Below, one piece after another: positions 4,739 through 63,773 of a stretch of DNA of 64,000 nt. Within the stretch, counting starts at the first letter, position 1. Each line of letters starts with the position of its first letter. The DNA comes from Acidimicrobiales bacterium mtb01 (GTDB lineage: Bacteria > Actinomycetota > Acidimicrobiia > Acidimicrobiales > Ilumatobacteraceae): contig NBNI01000005.1 in the NCBI GenBank assembly GCA_004379135.1, forward strand, positions 124,001 to 188,000, written 5' to 3'. A program made the position numbers and the translations under genes. The notes below the pieces were generated by a model. It saw nothing but the letters and a program-made list of their open reading frames with translations, was not told the DNA's origin and did no database searches.

Positions 4739-6658
4739 TCAGGGTTCGACGATGGGGAAGCCGCCCATGAAGACGTCGAGGTTGCCGAACACTGTCAATA
4801 GTGCGGACGCGTCACCGTCGAGCGCGATCGTGCCGGCCCCGATCTCGTCGGCGAACGACGTCTCCTGGACGATGATTCGCAGCAAGAGAGATCGATCGAG
4901 GCGGATCGACACGTCGGCACCCTCGTGATGACGCCCCCGCACCGAGTGCAACGTCCGGTTGGAGAGCGTCAACACCCACTTCTCGTCGGGGGTCCCGGCC
5001 ATGTCGGGGAAGGTCCAGTTCACGAACAACTTCACACCCGCCACCGCTTCGCTCTTGAGACGAACCGCCAACGTGTCGAACACCTGCTCGATCGTCATGG
5101 CCTTGAGCAATCCGCGTCCGCGCATCTCCGACGAACCCAATAGCGGCGGACCCTGGCGTAGTTCCTGCGCTCCCATCAGATACGCGTTGCGGAACGTGGT
5201 CGACTCGCTCTGGTACCCCAATTGCTCGAGAGCATCGGCCTGGAGATGGCGGGCCGCCGTGTTCGTCGGGTCGGCGAACACCAGGTGGTTCACCAGTTCG
5301 GCGACCCAGCGGTAGTCGCCCTCGTCGAAACACCGCCGGGCTTCCTGCAACAGGGCATCGGGCCCGCCGGCCAAGCGGACGTACCGGGCACCCACCTCAC
5401 TGGGGGGCAACTTGTCGAGATTGGCCGGGTTGCCGTCGTACCAACTCAGGTAACGCTGGTACACGGCTTTCGAGTTGTGCACCAGATCGCCGTAGTAGCC
5501 GCGTGTGTGGGTCGCCCCCAAGAACTCGTCGGGCAACTCGAGATGGCCGGCGATCTCCAAAGGGGTGAGGCCCTGATTGGCGTGGCGCATGGTCTGGTCG
5601 TGCATCCACCGGTACAGGTCGCGCTGCAACTGCAGGAACTCGATCGCGTCGTCGTGCCCCCACTGCGGCCAGTTGTGCGACGTGAACACCAACTTCGTGC
5701 GGCTCCCGAACAGTTCAATGGCCTCGCCGATGTACTTCGACCACTGCAGCGAGTTGCGAACCAACGCGCCCCGAATCGGAACGAGGTTGTGCATCGTGTG
5801 CGAGCAGTTCTCGGCCATGCACAACCAGCCACCGTCGGGGAAGAAGAAGTTCATCTCGGCCGGCGCTTCGGTCTCGGGTGTGAGCTGGAAGACGATGCGC
5901 ACACCGTCGACCACCTTCTCCTCGTCCGTCCGGGTGATCTCCTCGGTGGGAGCGATGAGACCAGGAGGGCCGATCGGAATCGACAGGCCGAGACCGCAGT
6001 TCACGTGACCACGCGGACCCGGCGGCAGCAGCGACCCGAATTGATACAGCGCGCGTCGGCTCATGGCCGGCCCGGCGATGAGGTTCTCGCCCACGGTCTC
6101 GGCCAGGAATCCCTCGGGCGCGATCACTCGACAACGACCGGCGTCGACGTCCTCCTGCGTGGTCACACCGAGAACACCGCCGAAGTGATCGGCGTGCGAG
6201 TGCGTGTAGATCACCGCGGTGACCGGTCGGTGGCCCAGATGCTTGGTGACGAGTTCGTACGACGCGCGAGCGGTGGCTTCGACCGTGAGCGGATCGATCA
6301 CGATCCATCCGGTGTCACCCTTCACGAACGTGATGTTCGAGATGTCGTATCCACGCACCTGCCACACACCCTCGGTGACCTCGAAGAGCCCGTGATGCGC
6401 GTTGAGCTTCGCATGGCGCCACAGACTCGGATGGACGGAGTCGGGGGCATCGCCGTCGAGGAATCCGTAGCGGCTCACGTCGGAGGCTCGCTGCCCTTGC
6501 GAGTCCCTGATGACCACGTCGTCCAACGACGCGATCCAGCCGCGGCGCACTCGGTCGAAGTCGGCCGGATCGAGATCGAACGTGACCGAGCGGTTGGCGG
6601 CCCGAGTGTGGTCGGTCGCCGCCTTGGGAGTGTCGAGGCGCGCCGTGGTGTCGGTCAT
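4739..6658 (-). CDS. Alkyl sulfatase, SdsA1/BDS1-like (metallo-beta-lactamase type)
   Basis: A 639-residue type III alkyl sulfatase that hydrolyses primary alkyl sulfates to alcohol plus sulfate. The zinc motif H-S-H-A-D-H is at residues 153-158 in the metallo-beta-lactamase domain. A central helical dimerisation domain (about 400-510) and a C-terminal SCP2-like domain (about 520-639) that holds the hydrophobic tail follow, the domain order of SdsA1. No signal peptide is seen, unlike secreted SdsA1, so it probably acts in the cytoplasm. A Shine-Dalgarno GGAGGG lies just before the ATG. Divergent from the heliorhodopsin gene. Confidence 0.92.
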   Translation of the reverse strand: MTDTTARLDTPKAATDHTRAANRSVTFDLDPADFDRVRRGWIASLDDVVIRDSQGQRASDVSRYGFLDGDAPDSVHPSLWRHAKLNAHHGLFEVTEGVWQVRGYDISNITFVKGDTGWIVIDPLTVEATARASYELVTKHLGHRPVTAVIYTHSHADHFGGVLGVTTQEDVDAGRCRVIAPEGFLAETVGENLIAGPAMSRRALYQFGSLLPPGPRGHVNCGLGLSIPIGPPGLIAPTEEITRTDEEKVVDGVRIVFQLTPETEAPAEMNFFFPDGGWLCMAENCSHTMHNLVPIRGALVRNSLQWSKYIGEAIELFGSRTKLVFTSHNWPQWGHDDAIEFLQLQRDLYRWMHDQTMRHANQGLTPLEIAGHLELPDEFLGATHTRGYYGDLVHNSKAVYQRYLSWYDGNPANLDKLPPSEVGARYVRLAGGPDALLQEARRCFDEGDYRWVAELVNHLVFADPTNTAARHLQADALEQLGYQSESTTFRNAYLMGAQELRQGPPLLGSSEMRGRGLLKAMTIEQVFDTLAVRLKSEAVAGVKLFVNWTFPDMAGTPDEKWVLTLSNRTLHSVRGRHHEGADVSIRLDRSLLLRIIVQETSFADEIGAGTIALDGDASALLTVFGNLDVFMGGFPIVEP

Positions 6659-6694
6659 GGTTCCCTCCGATCGCGATCGAGACGATCGCCGAGC

Positions 6695-6700
6695 AAGGTA
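6695..6700 (-). promoter_or_regulatory. Putative -10 element (TACCTT) of the alkyl sulfatase gene
   Basis: TACCTT on the minus strand lies about 36 bases before the sulfatase ATG, leaving room for a leader with the GGAGGG ribosome-binding site. Confidence 0.3.
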
Positions 6701-6747
6701 ACACGATCGACCGGACGACTATCCGGGTCGCCACCGTGCTGATGGCG

Positions 6748-6753
6748 TAGGTT
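6748..6753 (+). promoter_or_regulatory. Putative -10 element (TAGGTT) of the heliorhodopsin gene
   Basis: TAGGTT is followed by a short leader carrying the ribosome-binding site GAAGGGAG five bases before the ATG at 6773. The in-frame TTG at 6752 lies inside this element and is unlikely to be the start. Confidence 0.35.
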
Positions 6754-6772
6754 GGGAAACGAAGGGAGTGCC

Positions 6773-7543
6773 ATGACATCCGTCCCGATCTCGAACGAAG
6801 TCCGCGGCAATCTCCAGCGCCTCAACGTGGGCGCGGCGATTCTGCACGGTGTCCAGGCGATCATCGTGCTCGTCGCCGCCAACGACTTCAAACTCCCGGT
6901 CACGACGTTCTTTCTGAACGACGCACCGGGCAAGGGTCTCGATCCCACGCGACTCACGCAGCAGTTCGACGTGCGCATCGCGTGGGGGGTCTTCGGCTTC
7001 CTCGCGCTCTCGAGCCTCTTCCACGCGATGGCGGCGCTCGGTCGCGGCCGCACCGCCTATCTGGCGGAGTTGTCCGCCGGTCGCAACCGATTCCGGTGGG
7101 TCGAGTACTCGCTGTCTTCGACGCTCATGATCCTCATGATCGCGATGGTCTTCGGCATCACCGAGATCACCGCACTGATCGGAATCGCCGGTGTGAATGC
7201 GTCCATGATCCTCTTCGGCTGGATCATGGAAGTGGTCAACGAACCGGGCAAGCCGGTGTGGTTCACGCCCTTCTGGTTCGGCTGCATCGCCGGGATCGTC
7301 CCCTGGATCGCCCTCGTGATCTATCTGTTCGGCCCCGGCTCCGAGATGCCCAACTTCGTGTACGGGGTGTTCGTGAGCATCTTCATCTTCTTCAACCTGT
7401 TCGCCCTCAACCAGTGGCTGCAGTACAAGCAGGTCGGGAAGTGGCGCGACTACGTCTTCGGCGAGCGCGTGTACTTGATCCTGAGCCTGTCGGCGAAGTC
7501 GGCCCTTGCCTGGCAGATCTTCGGCAACACACTGGCTGCTTGA
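6773..7543 (+). CDS. Heliorhodopsin
   Basis: Seven-helix retinal protein of 256 residues from the heliorhodopsin family, whose N-terminus faces the cytoplasm, opposite to type 1 rhodopsins. Family hallmarks are present: W-V-E-Y-S-L-S-S in helix 3 with the Schiff-base counterion Glu111, S-L-S-A-K-S-A-L-A-W-Q in helix 7 with retinal lysine Lys242 and nearby Ser238, and intramembrane histidines His25 and His84, which match His23 and His80 of the reference 48C12. The conserved loop PFWFGCIAGIVPW is also there. Heliorhodopsins are not known ion pumps; signalling or regulation of a partner enzyme has been proposed. No retinal synthesis gene is in the window. Transcribed alone, divergent from the alkyl sulfatase gene. 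Confidence 0.95.
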   Translation: MTSVPISNEVRGNLQRLNVGAAILHGVQAIIVLVAANDFKLPVTTFFLNDAPGKGLDPTRLTQQFDVRIAWGVFGFLALSSLFHAMAALGRGRTAYLAELSAGRNRFRWVEYSLSSTLMILMIAMVFGITEITALIGIAGVNASMILFGWIMEVVNEPGKPVWFTPFWFGCIAGIVPWIALVIYLFGPGSEMPNFVYGVFVSIFIFFNLFALNQWLQYKQVGKWRDYVFGERVYLILSLSAKSALAWQIFGNTLAA

Positions 7544-7547
7544 TGAT

Positions 7548-7569
7548 CGTTGCGGCGTTCGCCGCGATG
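7548..7569. terminator. Hairpin between convergent genes, probable bidirectional terminator
   Basis: GCGGCG-TT-CGCCGC (7552-7565), extended by about four weaker pairs on each side, sits between the heliorhodopsin stop (7543) and the hydrolase stop (7572) on opposite strands. No T-run follows. Confidence 0.5.
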
Positions 7570-7571
7570 CA

Positions 7572-8348
7572 TCAGGTGAGTGACGCGAGGAATCGTGCGA
7601 TCGCGACGTTGGTCGGTTCGGGATGCGTGAGATTGGCGGCGTGAGTACCACCGGCAACCACCACGAGTTCGGCCCGACCGCCCAAGCCGTCGCGCAACAC
7701 CTCGGCTTTCGACAACGGGATGGCCGCGTCGTCGTCGCCGTGGATGATGAGTGACGGAGCGGTGATCTCGCCCAGGCGAGGGGTCACGTCGTCGCGGTGC
7801 ATCAAGCAGTCGAAGGCCAGCGAGAACTGGTCCTTGTCCATCCCGGCCCACTTCGCGTACCACGAGTCCCACGATCCGGCACCGAGGATGATGCCGGAGA
7901 TGACGTCTTGCACGGCGGCCGATCCGTGGGCCATCCACGCGTCGTGGAGTTGTCCGTAGCCCTCGACCTTGTCGGCGTCCTCGGTGCCGGCCTGAGTGTC
8001 GATGAGGATGAGTCCGCGAACACGCTCAGGAGCGGTGAGGGCGACACGCAAGGACAGGAAGCCGCCCTGCGACATACCGCCGACCACCGCCTTGTCGATG
8101 CCCAGGTGATCGAGCAGACCGAGAACGTCGCGGGCCGAATCCCAGTAGGTGAACTTCCCGGTGGCGCGGGTACCGCCGAAGCCGCGTTCGTCCCACGTGA
8201 TGACGCGGTGCGTGTTCTTCAACGCGGCCACTTGCGGATCGAACATCGAGTGGTCCATCAGGAATCCGTGGCTCAGGATCACGGCCGGGCCCGAGCCCCC
8301 GGTGTCCTCGTAGTGGATGGAGGTGCCGTTGATCAGTGCCGTCGCCAT
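7572..8348 (-). CDS. Alpha/beta hydrolase
   Basis: A 258-residue alpha/beta-hydrolase with the oxyanion HGF segment (about residue 26), nucleophile elbow G-G-M-S-Q-G-G with the catalytic Ser, an acidic residue in IHGDDDAAIP, and the final His in GGTHAANLTHP. This is the 3-oxoadipate-enol-lactonase/peroxidase-like layout; the substrate is unknown. The ATG at 8348 is fixed by TACTCT six bases upstream. Convergent with heliorhodopsin and divergent from the acyl-CoA ligase gene. Confidence 0.87.
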   Translation of the reverse strand: MATALINGTSIHYEDTGGSGPAVILSHGFLMDHSMFDPQVAALKNTHRVITWDERGFGGTRATGKFTYWDSARDVLGLLDHLGIDKAVVGGMSQGGFLSLRVALTAPERVRGLILIDTQAGTEDADKVEGYGQLHDAWMAHGSAAVQDVISGIILGAGSWDSWYAKWAGMDKDQFSLAFDCLMHRDDVTPRLGEITAPSLIIHGDDDAAIPLSKAEVLRDGLGGRAELVVVAGGTHAANLTHPEPTNVAIARFLASLT

Positions 8349-31950: not shown

Positions 31951-33603
<1,653 letters not shown>

Positions 33604-60919: not shown

Positions 60920-61444
60920 TCAGTCGCGCTGACGAGTGACAGCCGCGACGATTTCGTCGAGTGCTGCGTCGGCGTAGGCGCGCATTTCGTCGTCGGTGCG
61001 ATCCTGGATGGGGTGCGGTGTGAACACCCGCGCCACCTCGGGAAAGCCGAGCGACTTCGACTGCGCATCGGCGGCCGACACGAACTCGGCCGAGGCGACG
61101 AACACCGCGGGCACTCCGCGCTTCTCGATATCCACGATGTCGTGCACACTGCACGACGTGCAACTGCCTCAATCGGCGAGTGCTTCGATCACCACTTGAC
61201 ACTGCGTCGCGATCTCGTGGCGCAGATCGACCGGTGCGGGCTTGGTGAACGTGGGCTTCTTGAATCGGCGCACATCGGCACCCATCTCGGAGAGCCGCTG
61301 TTCGAGACGATCGAGGAACACGTCGCCGCGTGGTTTGGAGATGTCGAGCAGTCCGACCACCAGGCCGGACAGCGACTCGGGACGGCCGACGCGTTCCATG
61401 GTCTGCACGCGTCGCTCGTTGGTGGGGTCGAGCAGTGTCGTCAT
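60920..61444 (-). CDS. UGSC-family selenoprotein (in-frame TGA read as selenocysteine)
   Basis: A 174-residue protein if the TGA at 61171-61169 is read as selenocysteine. The frame runs 91 residues from the ATG at 61444, then U92-G-S-C-T-S-C, then 76 more residues to a stop at 60920. The motif U-G-S-C is that of the UGSC-containing selenoprotein family described from marine metagenomes. It forms a UxxC redox pair with Cys95 and has a further Cys98. A 7-bp hairpin with a GTG loop begins 12 bases after the TGA, as for a bacterial SECIS. The ATG overlaps the stop of the thioredoxin-like gene (ATGA). Without Sec insertion only a 91-residue fragment would form. Confidence 0.87.
61140..61156 (-). 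promoter_or_regulatory. SECIS-like hairpin downstream of the UGA
   Basis: On the minus strand TCGTGCA-GTG-TGCACGA is a perfect 7-bp stem with a 3-base loop containing G, starting 12 bases after the UGA and lying inside the coding region, as bacterial SECIS elements do. Confidence 0.65.
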
Positions 61445-62880
61445 CTCATCACCTCCCGTGTGACCGGCTGGCTGCCAACGTCGCCGTTGGCCCATCCCCC
61501 AATGATGGCAGAGAACAGACCGGCGCCGCCGCCCGCATGCACGAGAAGCAGCCCGCCGGGGCGGAACTTGGGCAGCGTCGCGTCCTTCAGGTGGGCCGGG
61601 ATTCCTTCGGCGATCCCGTTGGCTCCGCGAATCAGCTCGGAACCGGGGAGTTGGAGCCGGGCGTTGATCTCGTCGAGCACCTTCTCGCGATTCCAGCCGG
61701 CCTCGGCGAACACACGCGAGTGCTCGGGCCCCATCACCAGGATCGCGTCGAAAGCCAGCACCAGCTTGGGGTTATGCAAAGTGCGCAGACACGCGGCGAA
61801 CGTGTTGCACAGACTCTCCGGGTCGCGCGCTTGCTGGTCGACCACGCACCGCGGCCCCTCGCCGGGAAACACCGTGATCGCGTCGCGACCCGCGGCGACA
61901 CCGCGGCTCTCGGCGAGCGTCGTCCACGGCGAACCCAACTCGTCCTCGGCGAAACAGAACGAGATCTTTCCGGGATTGCCGTGCGTGGCCCGGTCGACTT
62001 CACCGGGACGGCCGCCGCCCACGTTGCGGATGACCAACTGAACCGCGCGCCCAATCGTGAGGTTGGCGCGGTTGCCCTGTCCGAACACGTTCATGCCGCT
62101 GTTCATCCCGATCGCACGCGTACCCGGTCCGTTGCACACGATCACCGGCCCCACCGGCATCGTGGTGGCGAGCACGCCGTGGATGTTGAACGTGTCGTTG
62201 CACACCGCTTCCACGCCCGCGATCACCCAGGGCAGGTACTCGGGCTTGCAGCCGGCCATCACGGCGTTGATGGCGATCTTCTCGACGGTCACCTCGACGA
62301 GATCGGGTGGCACCACTGCCACCACGTCGCCGGGCGCGCGAGTGGTTCCGGTGAGCATGCGCAGCACGCGTTCTTCGGTGGGCGGCACCACCGGCAGGCC
62401 GTCGGTCCAGCCGCGATCGAACATCGCCTCGAACTCGTCTTCGGCCGCCGCGGTTTCCACGCGCCGCGCCGACAACACCGAGCCGCCGAATCGTGCGCGC
62501 AACGCGTCGACCAGATCGGGATCGACGCTCAACGAACCGCAGCCGGGACGGAAAGCCGGTAGGTCGACGCCGAGATCCATTCGTCCGATCAAAGAATGCC
62601 ACTCGTCGCGAACCCAACCCACGGTGCGCGCGACTTCGCGCCCGTTCTCCACCTTGATCACGGTCGGCACCGTCTCGATGTCGTGGTGCCAACTCATGGA
62701 GAGGTCGGCGTCGTGAATCGCACCGACACCGACCGGGAACGACGGATCGTCCTGCGTGTAGACGGTCACCGGAACTGCGCCAGCCTTCAGTTGCGAGATC
62801 ACCGAAACCACGAGCCGGCACGTCTCGCACTCGTGCTTCACCACGATCACGAATCCATCGGGAAGCGTGGGAGTCGTCAT
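61441..62880 (-). CDS. Thioredoxin-domain protein, partner of the UGSC selenoprotein
   Basis: A 479-residue protein. The first 110 residues are glutaredoxin/thioredoxin-like with C-E-T-C at 18-21 and a cis-proline in T-V-P-T-V-I-K-V. The remaining 360 residues form a large domain that I cannot assign: W-T-D-G-L-P-V-V-P-P-T-E, P-G-T-R-A-I-G-M-N-S-G-M-N, F-G-Q-G-N-R-A-N-L-T-I-G and G-L-L-L-V-H-A-G-G-G-A-G stand out and look like ligand loops. No membrane segment. It lies two bases after the alpha/beta hydrolase gene and overlaps the selenoprotein gene; a redox relay through C-E-T-C and the Sec pair is likely, but the substrate is unknown. Confidence 0.82.
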   Translation of the reverse strand: MTTPTLPDGFVIVVKHECETCRLVVSVISQLKAGAVPVTVYTQDDPSFPVGVGAIHDADLSMSWHHDIETVPTVIKVENGREVARTVGWVRDEWHSLIGRMDLGVDLPAFRPGCGSLSVDPDLVDALRARFGGSVLSARRVETAAAEDEFEAMFDRGWTDGLPVVPPTEERVLRMLTGTTRAPGDVVAVVPPDLVEVTVEKIAINAVMAGCKPEYLPWVIAGVEAVCNDTFNIHGVLATTMPVGPVIVCNGPGTRAIGMNSGMNVFGQGNRANLTIGRAVQLVIRNVGGGRPGEVDRATHGNPGKISFCFAEDELGSPWTTLAESRGVAAGRDAITVFPGEGPRCVVDQQARDPESLCNTFAACLRTLHNPKLVLAFDAILVMGPEHSRVFAEAGWNREKVLDEINARLQLPGSELIRGANGIAEGIPAHLKDATLPKFRPGGLLLVHAGGGAGLFSAIIGGWANGDVGSQPVTREVMR

Positions 62881-62882
62881 GG

Positions 62883-63773
62883 TCAAGCCTTCAGGAAGTC
62901 GAGGATGATCAGGTTGACCGCATCGGGCCGTTCGAGGTGCAGGAAGTGTCCGGCTCCGTCGACGATCTCCATGCGCGCGTGTGCGGGCAATTCGGCGCGG
63001 GCGAACTCGGCTACTTCGACGCCCATGCAACCATCGGTACGGCCATGCAGATACAGATACGACTGCGGCGGGATGGCGCTGCTCTTCTCCTGCATCGACT
63101 GCAGCGCCGGGTCGTTGTAACCGGCTCCGAGTGTCGCGCGATAGAAGCCGAGCGCCGCCTGCAGGTTGGCAACGTCGCGCAGGCTCGGCTTGAGAAGTGC
63201 GAGATCTTCACGCGCGTCGTAACCGGGCGACCAATCGGCCCACAGCATGTCGATGAATGCAAGATCGTTGGCGCCAACGACCATGTCGGAAAGCGGATGT
63301 TGGAAGAAGAACATGTACCAACTGCGCTTGATCTGTGCGAGGTTGCCGATGAACGCCGCACCCACCGCGTTGCCGGGCGGCACGGCCATCGACACGACCT
63401 TGCGCCACGCGTCGGGTTTCTCGCTTGCGGCGATGTGCGTGATGGGTGCGCCCCAGTCGTGTCCGATGATCACCGAATCGGATCCGCCTCCGAGCGATGC
63501 GCGTAGTTCGAGCACGTCGAGGGCTGACGCCGCGGTCTGGAAACGGCCGTCGGCGGGCACGCCCGAGGGGGCGTATCCGCGCAGGAACGGGGCTACCGCC
63601 CGGTAACCGGCGTCGGCGAGACGCGGAAGCAGGTGGCGCCAGGTGTGGGCCGAATCGGGGAAGCCGTGCACGCACACGGCGAGCGGGCCGCCGTTGTCGA
63701 GGCCGGCTGCCAGGTACGACAGGTCGAACCCGTTGACCGACACGCTGTGCTGAGTGATTCCCCCGTGACTCAT
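62883..63773 (-). CDS. Alpha/beta hydrolase (epoxide hydrolase/haloalkane dehalogenase-like)
   Basis: A 296-residue hydrolase. H-G-F-P-D-S (oxyanion region), I-G-H-D-W-G-A with a nucleophilic Asp rather than Ser, and the final His in G-A-G-H-F-L-H fit the epoxide hydrolase/dehalogenase branch. The cap domain (about 150-230) is aromatic-rich. First gene of the operon with the thioredoxin-like protein and the UGSC selenoprotein. Start fixed by TACGGT six bases upstream. Confidence 0.88.
   Translation of the reverse strand: MSHGGITQHSVSVNGFDLSYLAAGLDNGGPLAVCVHGFPDSAHTWRHLLPRLADAGYRAVAPFLRGYAPSGVPADGRFQTAASALDVLELRASLGGGSDSVIIGHDWGAPITHIAASEKPDAWRKVVSMAVPPGNAVGAAFIGNLAQIKRSWYMFFFQHPLSDMVVGANDLAFIDMLWADWSPGYDAREDLALLKPSLRDVANLQAALGFYRATLGAGYNDPALQSMQEKSSAIPPQSYLYLHGRTDGCMGVEVAEFARAELPAHARMEIVDGAGHFLHLERPDAVNLIILDFLKA

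Follow-up and report, generated by a model that had tools for sequence, protein, structure and literature searches.

Glycine, sarcosine and betaine reductase (GrdB) and D-proline reductase (PrdB), which make up family PF07355 (GRDB), have a pyruvoyl subunit, GrdE or PrdA, with its Schiff-base chemistry, and grd operons include trxBA. A GrdB-like protein, FarB, has been proposed for the cleavage of the C-F bond of fluoroacetate; in the passages of PMC10838667 concerned, this GrdB-type selenocysteine (Sec) protein is proposed to attack the carbon of an organic acid and to expel the leaving group without a pyruvoyl group. The likeness to the system treated below is one of description, and FarB/FarE differ from it in being a full GrdB/GrdE pair and anaerobic (PMC10838667, same passages).

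The UGSC selenoproteins have been known since 2008. The passages on UGSC in the 2008 paper (PMC2398784) report it as frequent in non-marine aquatic samples, suggest a likely Trx-like fold and a redox function, and mention a fusion of UGSC with 'Unknown_1'; those in PMC9402790 assign to it 8.2% of the selenoprotein genes in a marine survey. By these passages, few selenoproteins are commoner than UGSC in aquatic metagenomes. No function is stated in the UGSC passages of PMC2398784, PMC13188914, PMC9312934, PMC5029168, PMC7539508, PMC9402790, PMC5330540 and PMC7435645. No statement on a partner, a link to thioredoxin or a relation to GrdB/PrdB was found in these passages or among the matches listed for the open-access selenium literature, and the matches listed for selenocysteine in Acidimicrobiia/acIV contain nothing on UGSC.

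The gene described here, which lies in a stretch of 64,000 nucleotides from Acidimicrobiales bacterium mtb01 (the whole of the DNA analysed, called the window below), is a member of this family. The selenoprotein family is thus already known; the two-gene system of UGSC and a partner appears to be new. The features of the locus are collected in Table 1.

Table 1. Features of the UGSC locus, in positions of the window
Feature	Position	Strand	Remarks
UGSC gene (predicted selenoprotein)	60920..61444	-	174 aa with Sec92; PF24696, NF041046
UGA codon, predicted to encode Sec92	61169..61171	-	TGA in 80/80 nearest homologues kept
SECIS-like hairpin	61139..61157	-	8-bp stem GTCGTGCA/TGCACGAC, loop GTG
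Partner gene	61441..62880	-	479 aa from ATG 62880; overlaps the UGSC start by ATGA
Partner, N-terminal domain, predicted thioredoxin fold	62581..62877	-	residues 2-100; structure alignment
Partner, C-x-T-C motif (C18-x-T-C21)	62818-62829	-	invariant columns in 54 sequences
Partner, C-terminal domain	61456..62463	-	residues ~140-475 (~330 residues)
Alpha/beta hydrolase gene	62883..63773	-	PF00561, E 9.1e-23; directly upstream of the partner

The UGSC gene and its in-frame UGA

The frame on the minus strand starts with ATG at 61444, meets TGA at codon 92 and stays open for another 82 codons, up to a terminal TGA at 60920-60922; the residues at the junction are D-U-G-S-C-T-S-C. In coordinates, frame and motif this is exactly what a preliminary description of the sequence had given. 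Its assignment to the UGSC selenoprotein family is confirmed by two models above their curated cut-offs: the read-through translation hits PF24696 from residue 4 to residue 170, with the TGA inside the match (E 1.2e-47; 162.7 bits, cut-off 25), and NF041046 with 170.2 bits (cut-off 125), and the U/C-G-S-C motif is present in its place.

The UGA might be a true stop, giving a product of 91 residues. Among the 267 TGA-ended open runs of at least 90 codons in the six frames of the window, 93 have at least 82 further open codons, which favours such a reading: in this GC-rich window the open continuation alone is not above chance. It is the other evidence, that is, conservation, covariation and profile matches, which decides the selenoprotein call.

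Near homologues were obtained by a profile search of genome contigs, and the best 80 of 334 relatives were kept. All 80 carry TGA at the Sec codon, which settles for the nearest relatives whether U or C is held at position 92, and in all of them the frame remains open beyond it, so that none ends at this position. In a sample of 396 genomes of the phylum, TGA is carried by 34 of the 42 UGSC sequences retained from 44; the two weak matches removed, in G196 and G271, have frames that were judged by eye to be of FAD-dependent reductase type.

A 7-bp hairpin with a GTG loop had been pointed out behind the UGA; it is present, and an added outer G-C pair extends the stem to 8 bp. Its nature as a SECIS was tested by the fixation of synonymous codons and by stem covariation. 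Between codons -12 and +25 around the UGA (gap-free columns, 80 homologues), total silent-site fixation is confined to the vicinity of the TGA and the hairpin. A single synonymous codon is used in 80/80 at codons -1 (Asp, GAT), +4 (Thr, ACG), +6 (Cys, TGC), +7 (Ser, AGT), +8 (Val, GTG) and +10 (Asp, GAC), where the background in the rest of the stretch is 49%, 28%, 71%, 5%, 48% and 51%, respectively. From about +11 onward codon usage is close to the background, with a milder bias in places, e.g., at +13, -2 and -8.

Over 87 distinct sequences, 98.3% of the cells of the 8-bp stem are paired. Three stem pairs have changed on both sides; the double changes are from G-C to A-U (3 sequences), from C-G to G-C (3) and from U-A to G-C (1). 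None of 500 shuffles, which ignore relatedness, reaches any of five stem measures. The change from C-G to G-C accompanies a replacement of Cys98 by Trp (L103, L113 and L123). The two outer pairs are broken in 3 and 8 sequences, the stem is not kept in L124, and four Cys forms (L100, L116, L119 and L120) are without it. A lenient hairpin search turned up a looser stem of some kind in all sequences shown, including the Cys forms, and the count is therefore limited to the 8-bp stem in its own position. Rfam gave no SECIS match between 58000 and 64000, and one miRNA match far below cut-off. The codon fixation and the covariation argue for selection on the hairpin as RNA.

The proposal that the organism makes selenocysteine would fail if selB and selC were missing. 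Both are present in the source genome (2.56 Mb, 97.66% complete): selB (298 bits, cut-off 242) adjoins selA (401 bits, cut-off 268), and the tRNA-Sec gene selC scores 65.8 bits against a gathering threshold of 47, with the anticodon TCA (UCA) by ARAGORN; selD is found as well (326 bits, cut-off 125). In the phylum sample, RF01852 is matched at E ≤ 9e-12 in 22/22 genomes with a TGA-UGSC, and in the four genomes whose UGSC are all Cys or Met forms the match is 2.8e-9 or weaker in three and 3.2e-11 in the fourth (G284); since 259 of the 396 genomes pass the RF01852 cut-off, this co-occurrence is a matter of consistency and does not discriminate. UGSC-motif selenoproteins are also reported, in the passage concerned of PMC5330540, from genomes whose tRNA-Sec has the anticodon CUA, including Blastococcus.

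Termination at the UGA is contradicted by the conservation of protein and codons past it, by the covariation of the SECIS-like stem and by the complete Sec machinery, and its probability appears negligible. The TGA at codon 92 is very probably read as selenocysteine in this freshwater-type bacterium, and the classification of the UGSC gene as encoding a selenoprotein comes close to certainty on the comparative evidence. In Acidovorax T1 (L246 6926-7444) and Paracoccus ferrooxidans (L248 6372-6884) the annotation of the UGSC gene ends at the UGA, so that a short hypothetical protein is recorded. Named strains with the gene include Ilumatobacter nonamiensis YM16-303 (L051) and Desertimonas flava SYSU D60003 (L065).

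Sec92 and Cys95 had been suggested to form a redox pair. Cys at U+3 (Cys95) is present in 53/53 UGSC sequences of the profile set (the fused Met forms are outside the set), and Cys98 is absent in 8 of the 53; the conservation at U+3 agrees with the suggestion, and the pairing itself is what we infer from it.

The partner gene and its distribution

An alternative TTG start at 63030 would lengthen the partner to 529 aa. In the partner model (pLDDT 83.9), residues 2-100 align with thioredoxins (VIA-align Z up to 9.8, rmsd 2.6, 86 residues), and this segment is predicted to be a thioredoxin fold with a CxxC; by sequence, the partner found a single weak thioredoxin in the PDB (E 0.78). The C-terminal domain has the conserved elements DGxP, MAGC211, GP, GRA, PG and H387, with Cys211 in 26 of 27 sequences. 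At a limit of 0.001 neither Pfam nor NCBIfam has a family for the partner, which has one chance-level Pfam hit at E 10, and no fold is prominent among the fold-search matches listed for the C-terminal domain.

Of the 79 near loci with at least 160 nt of upstream sequence, 74 have a partner gene that ends no more than 200 nt upstream of UGSC. About 6-7 kb separates the two in the freshwater relatives L067 and L087, the frames of the intervening stretch in L087 (1653-7779) being read as sugar- and methyltransferase-like genes; in L073, L083 and L085 there is no partner within the 314-396 nt of available flank. For the phylum sample, 43 of 53 partner matches were kept and ten thioredoxin-only or short pieces were left out, nine genomes having no other match. 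UGSC (over the cut-off) then occurs in 26 and the partner C-terminal domain in 27 of the 396 genomes, and all 26 UGSC genomes have the domain, a co-occurrence count that ignores relatedness; G183 is the only genome with the partner in which UGSC was not found. The partner lies within 1 kb on the same strand in 37 of the 42 UGSC cases (29 upstream, 8 downstream), and in the remaining five it is not adjacent, yet present elsewhere in each genome. The two are joined in a single chain in three cases, with Sec in G186 and with Met at that position in G136 and Vibrio europaeus. By these computations UGSC forms a near-obligate pair with the partner and is not a lone protein. The partner may be the 'Unknown_1' that the passage in PMC2398784 mentions as fused to UGSC.

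The partner is also found on 24 plasmid records from Actinomycetota, Pseudomonadota, Bacillota and haloarchaea, of which 19 were analysed with home-made profiles. All 19 carry the partner and 17 carry UGSC, always adjoining; UGSC was not found by these profiles in Haladaptatus (L255) and Sporomusa (L256). At the Sec position, the 17 plasmid UGSC have TGA in three (Acidovorax T1, Paracoccus versutus and P. ferrooxidans, the last with selB at a distance of ~3 kb), Cys in 13 and Met in one.

The gene order on the plasmid of Arthrobacter ERGS1:01 is trxB-trxA-partner-UGSC; the domain fused in the partner of the window is therefore a separate gene (trxA) there, and the two thioredoxins bear a distant resemblance to each other (hhalign E 9.4e-5). 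The Cys-UGSC of Arthrobacter (L251 7985-8800) has a C-terminal extension of ~75-100 residues with a CxxC of its own. In Roseovarius trxB adjoins UGSC, and in Variovorax SRS16 it is three genes upstream of the partner. The TrxB of all three exceed the cut-off of NCBIfam TIGR01292, and three further TrxB-like neighbours score below it.

Some of the arrangements differ in copy number or context. On four haloarchaeal plasmids (L253, L254, L261 and L263) a single Cys-UGSC stands between two copies of the partner, and in G183 (L227) paired partner domains occur with no UGSC found; it looks as if the partner might work as a dimer. The fusion of Vibrio europaeus (L252) stands beside aconitase X and DUF126 genes, as does a similar long gene of Sporomusa (L256) in which the UGSC part was undetected. 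The Met fusions (G136, i.e., L161, and L252) and L256 are perhaps a non-redox subfamily.

Neighbouring genes were assigned to Pfam families for 29 of 143 called frames, chosen by hand, and for the hydrolase of the window, with no random-background comparison. The other plasmid neighbours include a CoA transferase, a CoA ester lyase, TRAP and TTT transport proteins and LysR regulators, and those of distant actinobacterial loci a CoA transferase III, an acyl-CoA ligase, an acyl-CoA dehydrogenase and an SDR. The alpha/beta hydrolase recurs at the same place and strand in 29 of the 80 near loci (any hit in 30) and is possibly part of the partner operon, as a loose association. The nearest neighbours in the window (hydrolase and pyruvate kinase) name no pathway. 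The neighbour genes vary, and therefore no single substrate is implied.

The size and high conservation of the partner C-terminal domain, with Cys211 in 26/27, may be taken to mean that this domain is the real enzyme (e.g., a hydro-lyase or a decarboxylase) and that UGSC is an accessory to it which keeps Cys211 or a cofactor reduced. The domain occurs in G183 and Haladaptatus, where UGSC was not found, and together with Met-UGSC in the fusions, and its best Foldseek matches are Leishmania fumarate hydratases (E 7e-4). However, the fumarase match has a TM of only 0.22, UGSC accompanies the domain in 26 of 27 genomes, and the TGA is kept in 34 of the 42 UGSC; such a division of roles seems rather improbable. 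An identity of the domain as a class I fumarase found no support in profiles: against PF05681, hhalign gave E 0.22 and a score of 17.7, where the best of 60 shuffles reached 22.3. The window has a PF05681 match gene of its own at 32638-33459 (-), which we take to be a class I fumarase.

Relation of UGSC to GrdB and PrdB

The comparison with GrdB was first prompted by a GrdB motif. Searched directly, the PF07355 profile did not list UGSC up to the limit of E 10, and it was discarded as a direct test. The model stops at the Sec codon: in 27/27 GRDB loci the TGA follows the end of the PF07355 match at once or within three codons. Relations behind the UGA are consequently invisible to that model, and its truncation may have hidden the homology between UGSC and GrdB/PrdB.

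To include this part, the GRDB sequences were extended past the UGA before alignment with hhalign. The GRDB set comprises 27 loci (L130-L143 and L147-L159) of 30 fetched; L144-L146, whose match is confined to the first half of PF07355, were excluded. The 53 UGSC and 27 GRDB sequences align with a probability of 90%, E 1.5e-6 and a score of 50.8, Sec on Sec, whereas the best of 100 column shuffles scores 20.5. The E value grows stronger with diversity: it is 7.6e-4 for the 14 full-length GRDB, 1e-4 for the 13 small PrdB-like sequences, and 3.6e-8 (probability 95%; best of 60 shuffles 21.9) with plasmid and archaeal UGSC added. In general, the real scores are 33-61 and the best column shuffles 20-25. 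With Sec masked the register is kept (E 3.3e-3, 1.2e-4 and 1e-5, the last with all 27 GRDB), and reversed GRDB gives no alignment with UGSC. The alignment covers ~62-85 columns, and the first half of UGSC is outside it. The profile comparisons of GrdE, fumarase and the partner stay within the range of the shuffles.

These alignments make it highly likely that residues ~79-171 of UGSC share descent with the Sec-bearing C-terminal end of GrdB/PrdB. In both, the Sec follows a hydrophobic strand, and both have an E-(R/K)-x-G-(I/V)-P stretch as well as a P-(H/Y)-P turn. The UxxC is common to UGSC and the small PrdB-like branch (13/13), unlike in the full-length GRDB, where Cys is at U+3 in 0/14 and at U+6 in 13/14. 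A second selenoprotein of the GRDB superfamily, PrdB-like and with a U-P-L-C motif, is encoded in the same genome outside the window (L160 ~6600-8100, C1:850607 onward, TGA near C1:851033).

UGSC also differs from GrdB and PrdB. It has less than half the length of a full GrdB, and the partner domain is unrelated to GrdE/PrdA, as which it was considered and rejected (E 0.47, below the best shuffle); GrdE/PrdA (PF09338) has no match in the organism's own genome. Therefore, the Schiff-base chemistry cannot be transferred to the UGSC system. Moreover, many UGSC hosts are not anaerobic fermenters.

With regard to fold, the AlphaFold model of UGSC (66 sequences; pLDDT 89.6) is an alternating beta-alpha, Rossmann-like structure in which Sec92 opens helix 93-108, after strand 84-90. 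Its best matches in the PDB are alpha/beta proteins of several kinds (top Z 12.1, rmsd 3.2, 132 residues), with no thioredoxin among the 50 fold-search matches listed; by sequence, UGSC matches nothing in the PDB, and a GrdB query yields no GrdB-named chain there but three weak unrelated ones. The modelled fold of UGSC is thus Rossmann-like, in contrast to the published guess of a Trx-like fold (PMC2398784, UGSC passages); a Rossmann-like form was not found in the passages of the UGSC family literature.

This bears on the possibility that UGSC is a general selenol/thiol oxidoreductase (a peroxidase, or a disulfide or sulfoxide reductase) that the thioredoxin domain recharges and for which the partner is a protein or small-molecule target. 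The UxxC motif and the link to thioredoxin are in keeping with such a role, as is the description of UGSC in the passages of PMC2398784 as likely of Trx fold and redox function. However, the model is a Rossmann-like alpha/beta structure, the profile similarity is to GrdB/PrdB, and the near-strict pairing with a large conserved domain, together with catabolic neighbours, fits a dedicated enzyme better. A general oxidoreductase is accordingly regarded as unlikely, though somewhat less so than the partner acting as the sole enzyme.

The proposed two-subunit reductase

The reading preferred here is that UGSC and its partner constitute a thioredoxin-driven two-subunit (seleno)reductase, perhaps one that acts on an organic acid or a CoA ester by cleaving a C-X bond; as a whole this is moderately favoured. 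Its parts differ in strength. That the pair is a two-subunit enzyme fed by thioredoxin is likely, the complex and the flow of electrons being what we infer; the cleavage of a C-X bond falls a little short of an even chance, and it is, like the type of substrate, a guess.

On the comparative evidence, the hairpin behind the UGA very probably brings in SelB and tRNA-Sec for the insertion of Sec92. UGSC would work with the partner, which would be translated just upstream across the ATGA overlap, and the C-terminal domain of the partner would bind and activate the substrate, a small organic acid or the CoA ester of one. Sec92 might then attack the activated carbon, or take over an oxidised group, and Cys95 would resolve the intermediate, whereby a Sec92-Cys95 selenenylsulfide would form and the reduced product leave. 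Finally, the fused thioredoxin domain (C18-x-T-C21) would re-reduce the selenenylsulfide and would in turn be recharged by thioredoxin reductase. The scheme resembles the thioredoxin/thioredoxin reductase system in the fold and CxTC of the N-terminal domain and in the trxA and trxB genes that stand beside UGSC elsewhere, and it differs in that the thioredoxin is here fused to the enzyme partner. Given the Cys in 13 of the 17 plasmid UGSC and the Met in the fused forms, selenol or thiol chemistry is not open to all relatives. This speaks against the proposal, as do the partners of G183 and Haladaptatus, for which no UGSC was found, and the five UGSC with no adjacent partner.

A more specific form of the proposal, put forward tentatively and held to be less probable than C-X cleavage by itself, is that UGSC and its partner form a third branch of the GrdB/PrdB selenoreductases, one with no pyruvoyl group, in which NADPH, via thioredoxin reductase and thioredoxin, drives the cleavage of a carbon-heteroatom bond.

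The end of PF07355 at the Sec codon carries a general warning, namely that truncated gene models can hide homology across a UGA. For the family itself, the function of UGSC becomes a question for the bench, given a partner, a likely electron donor and a precedent for the mechanism. If the third branch is real, it would be found in bacteria and haloarchaea and also on plasmids, the bond cleaved in the organic acid or CoA ester would be C-halogen, C-N, C-S or C-O, and the Sec, Cys and Met versions would mark a passage from a selenol to a thiol to a non-redox fused enzyme.
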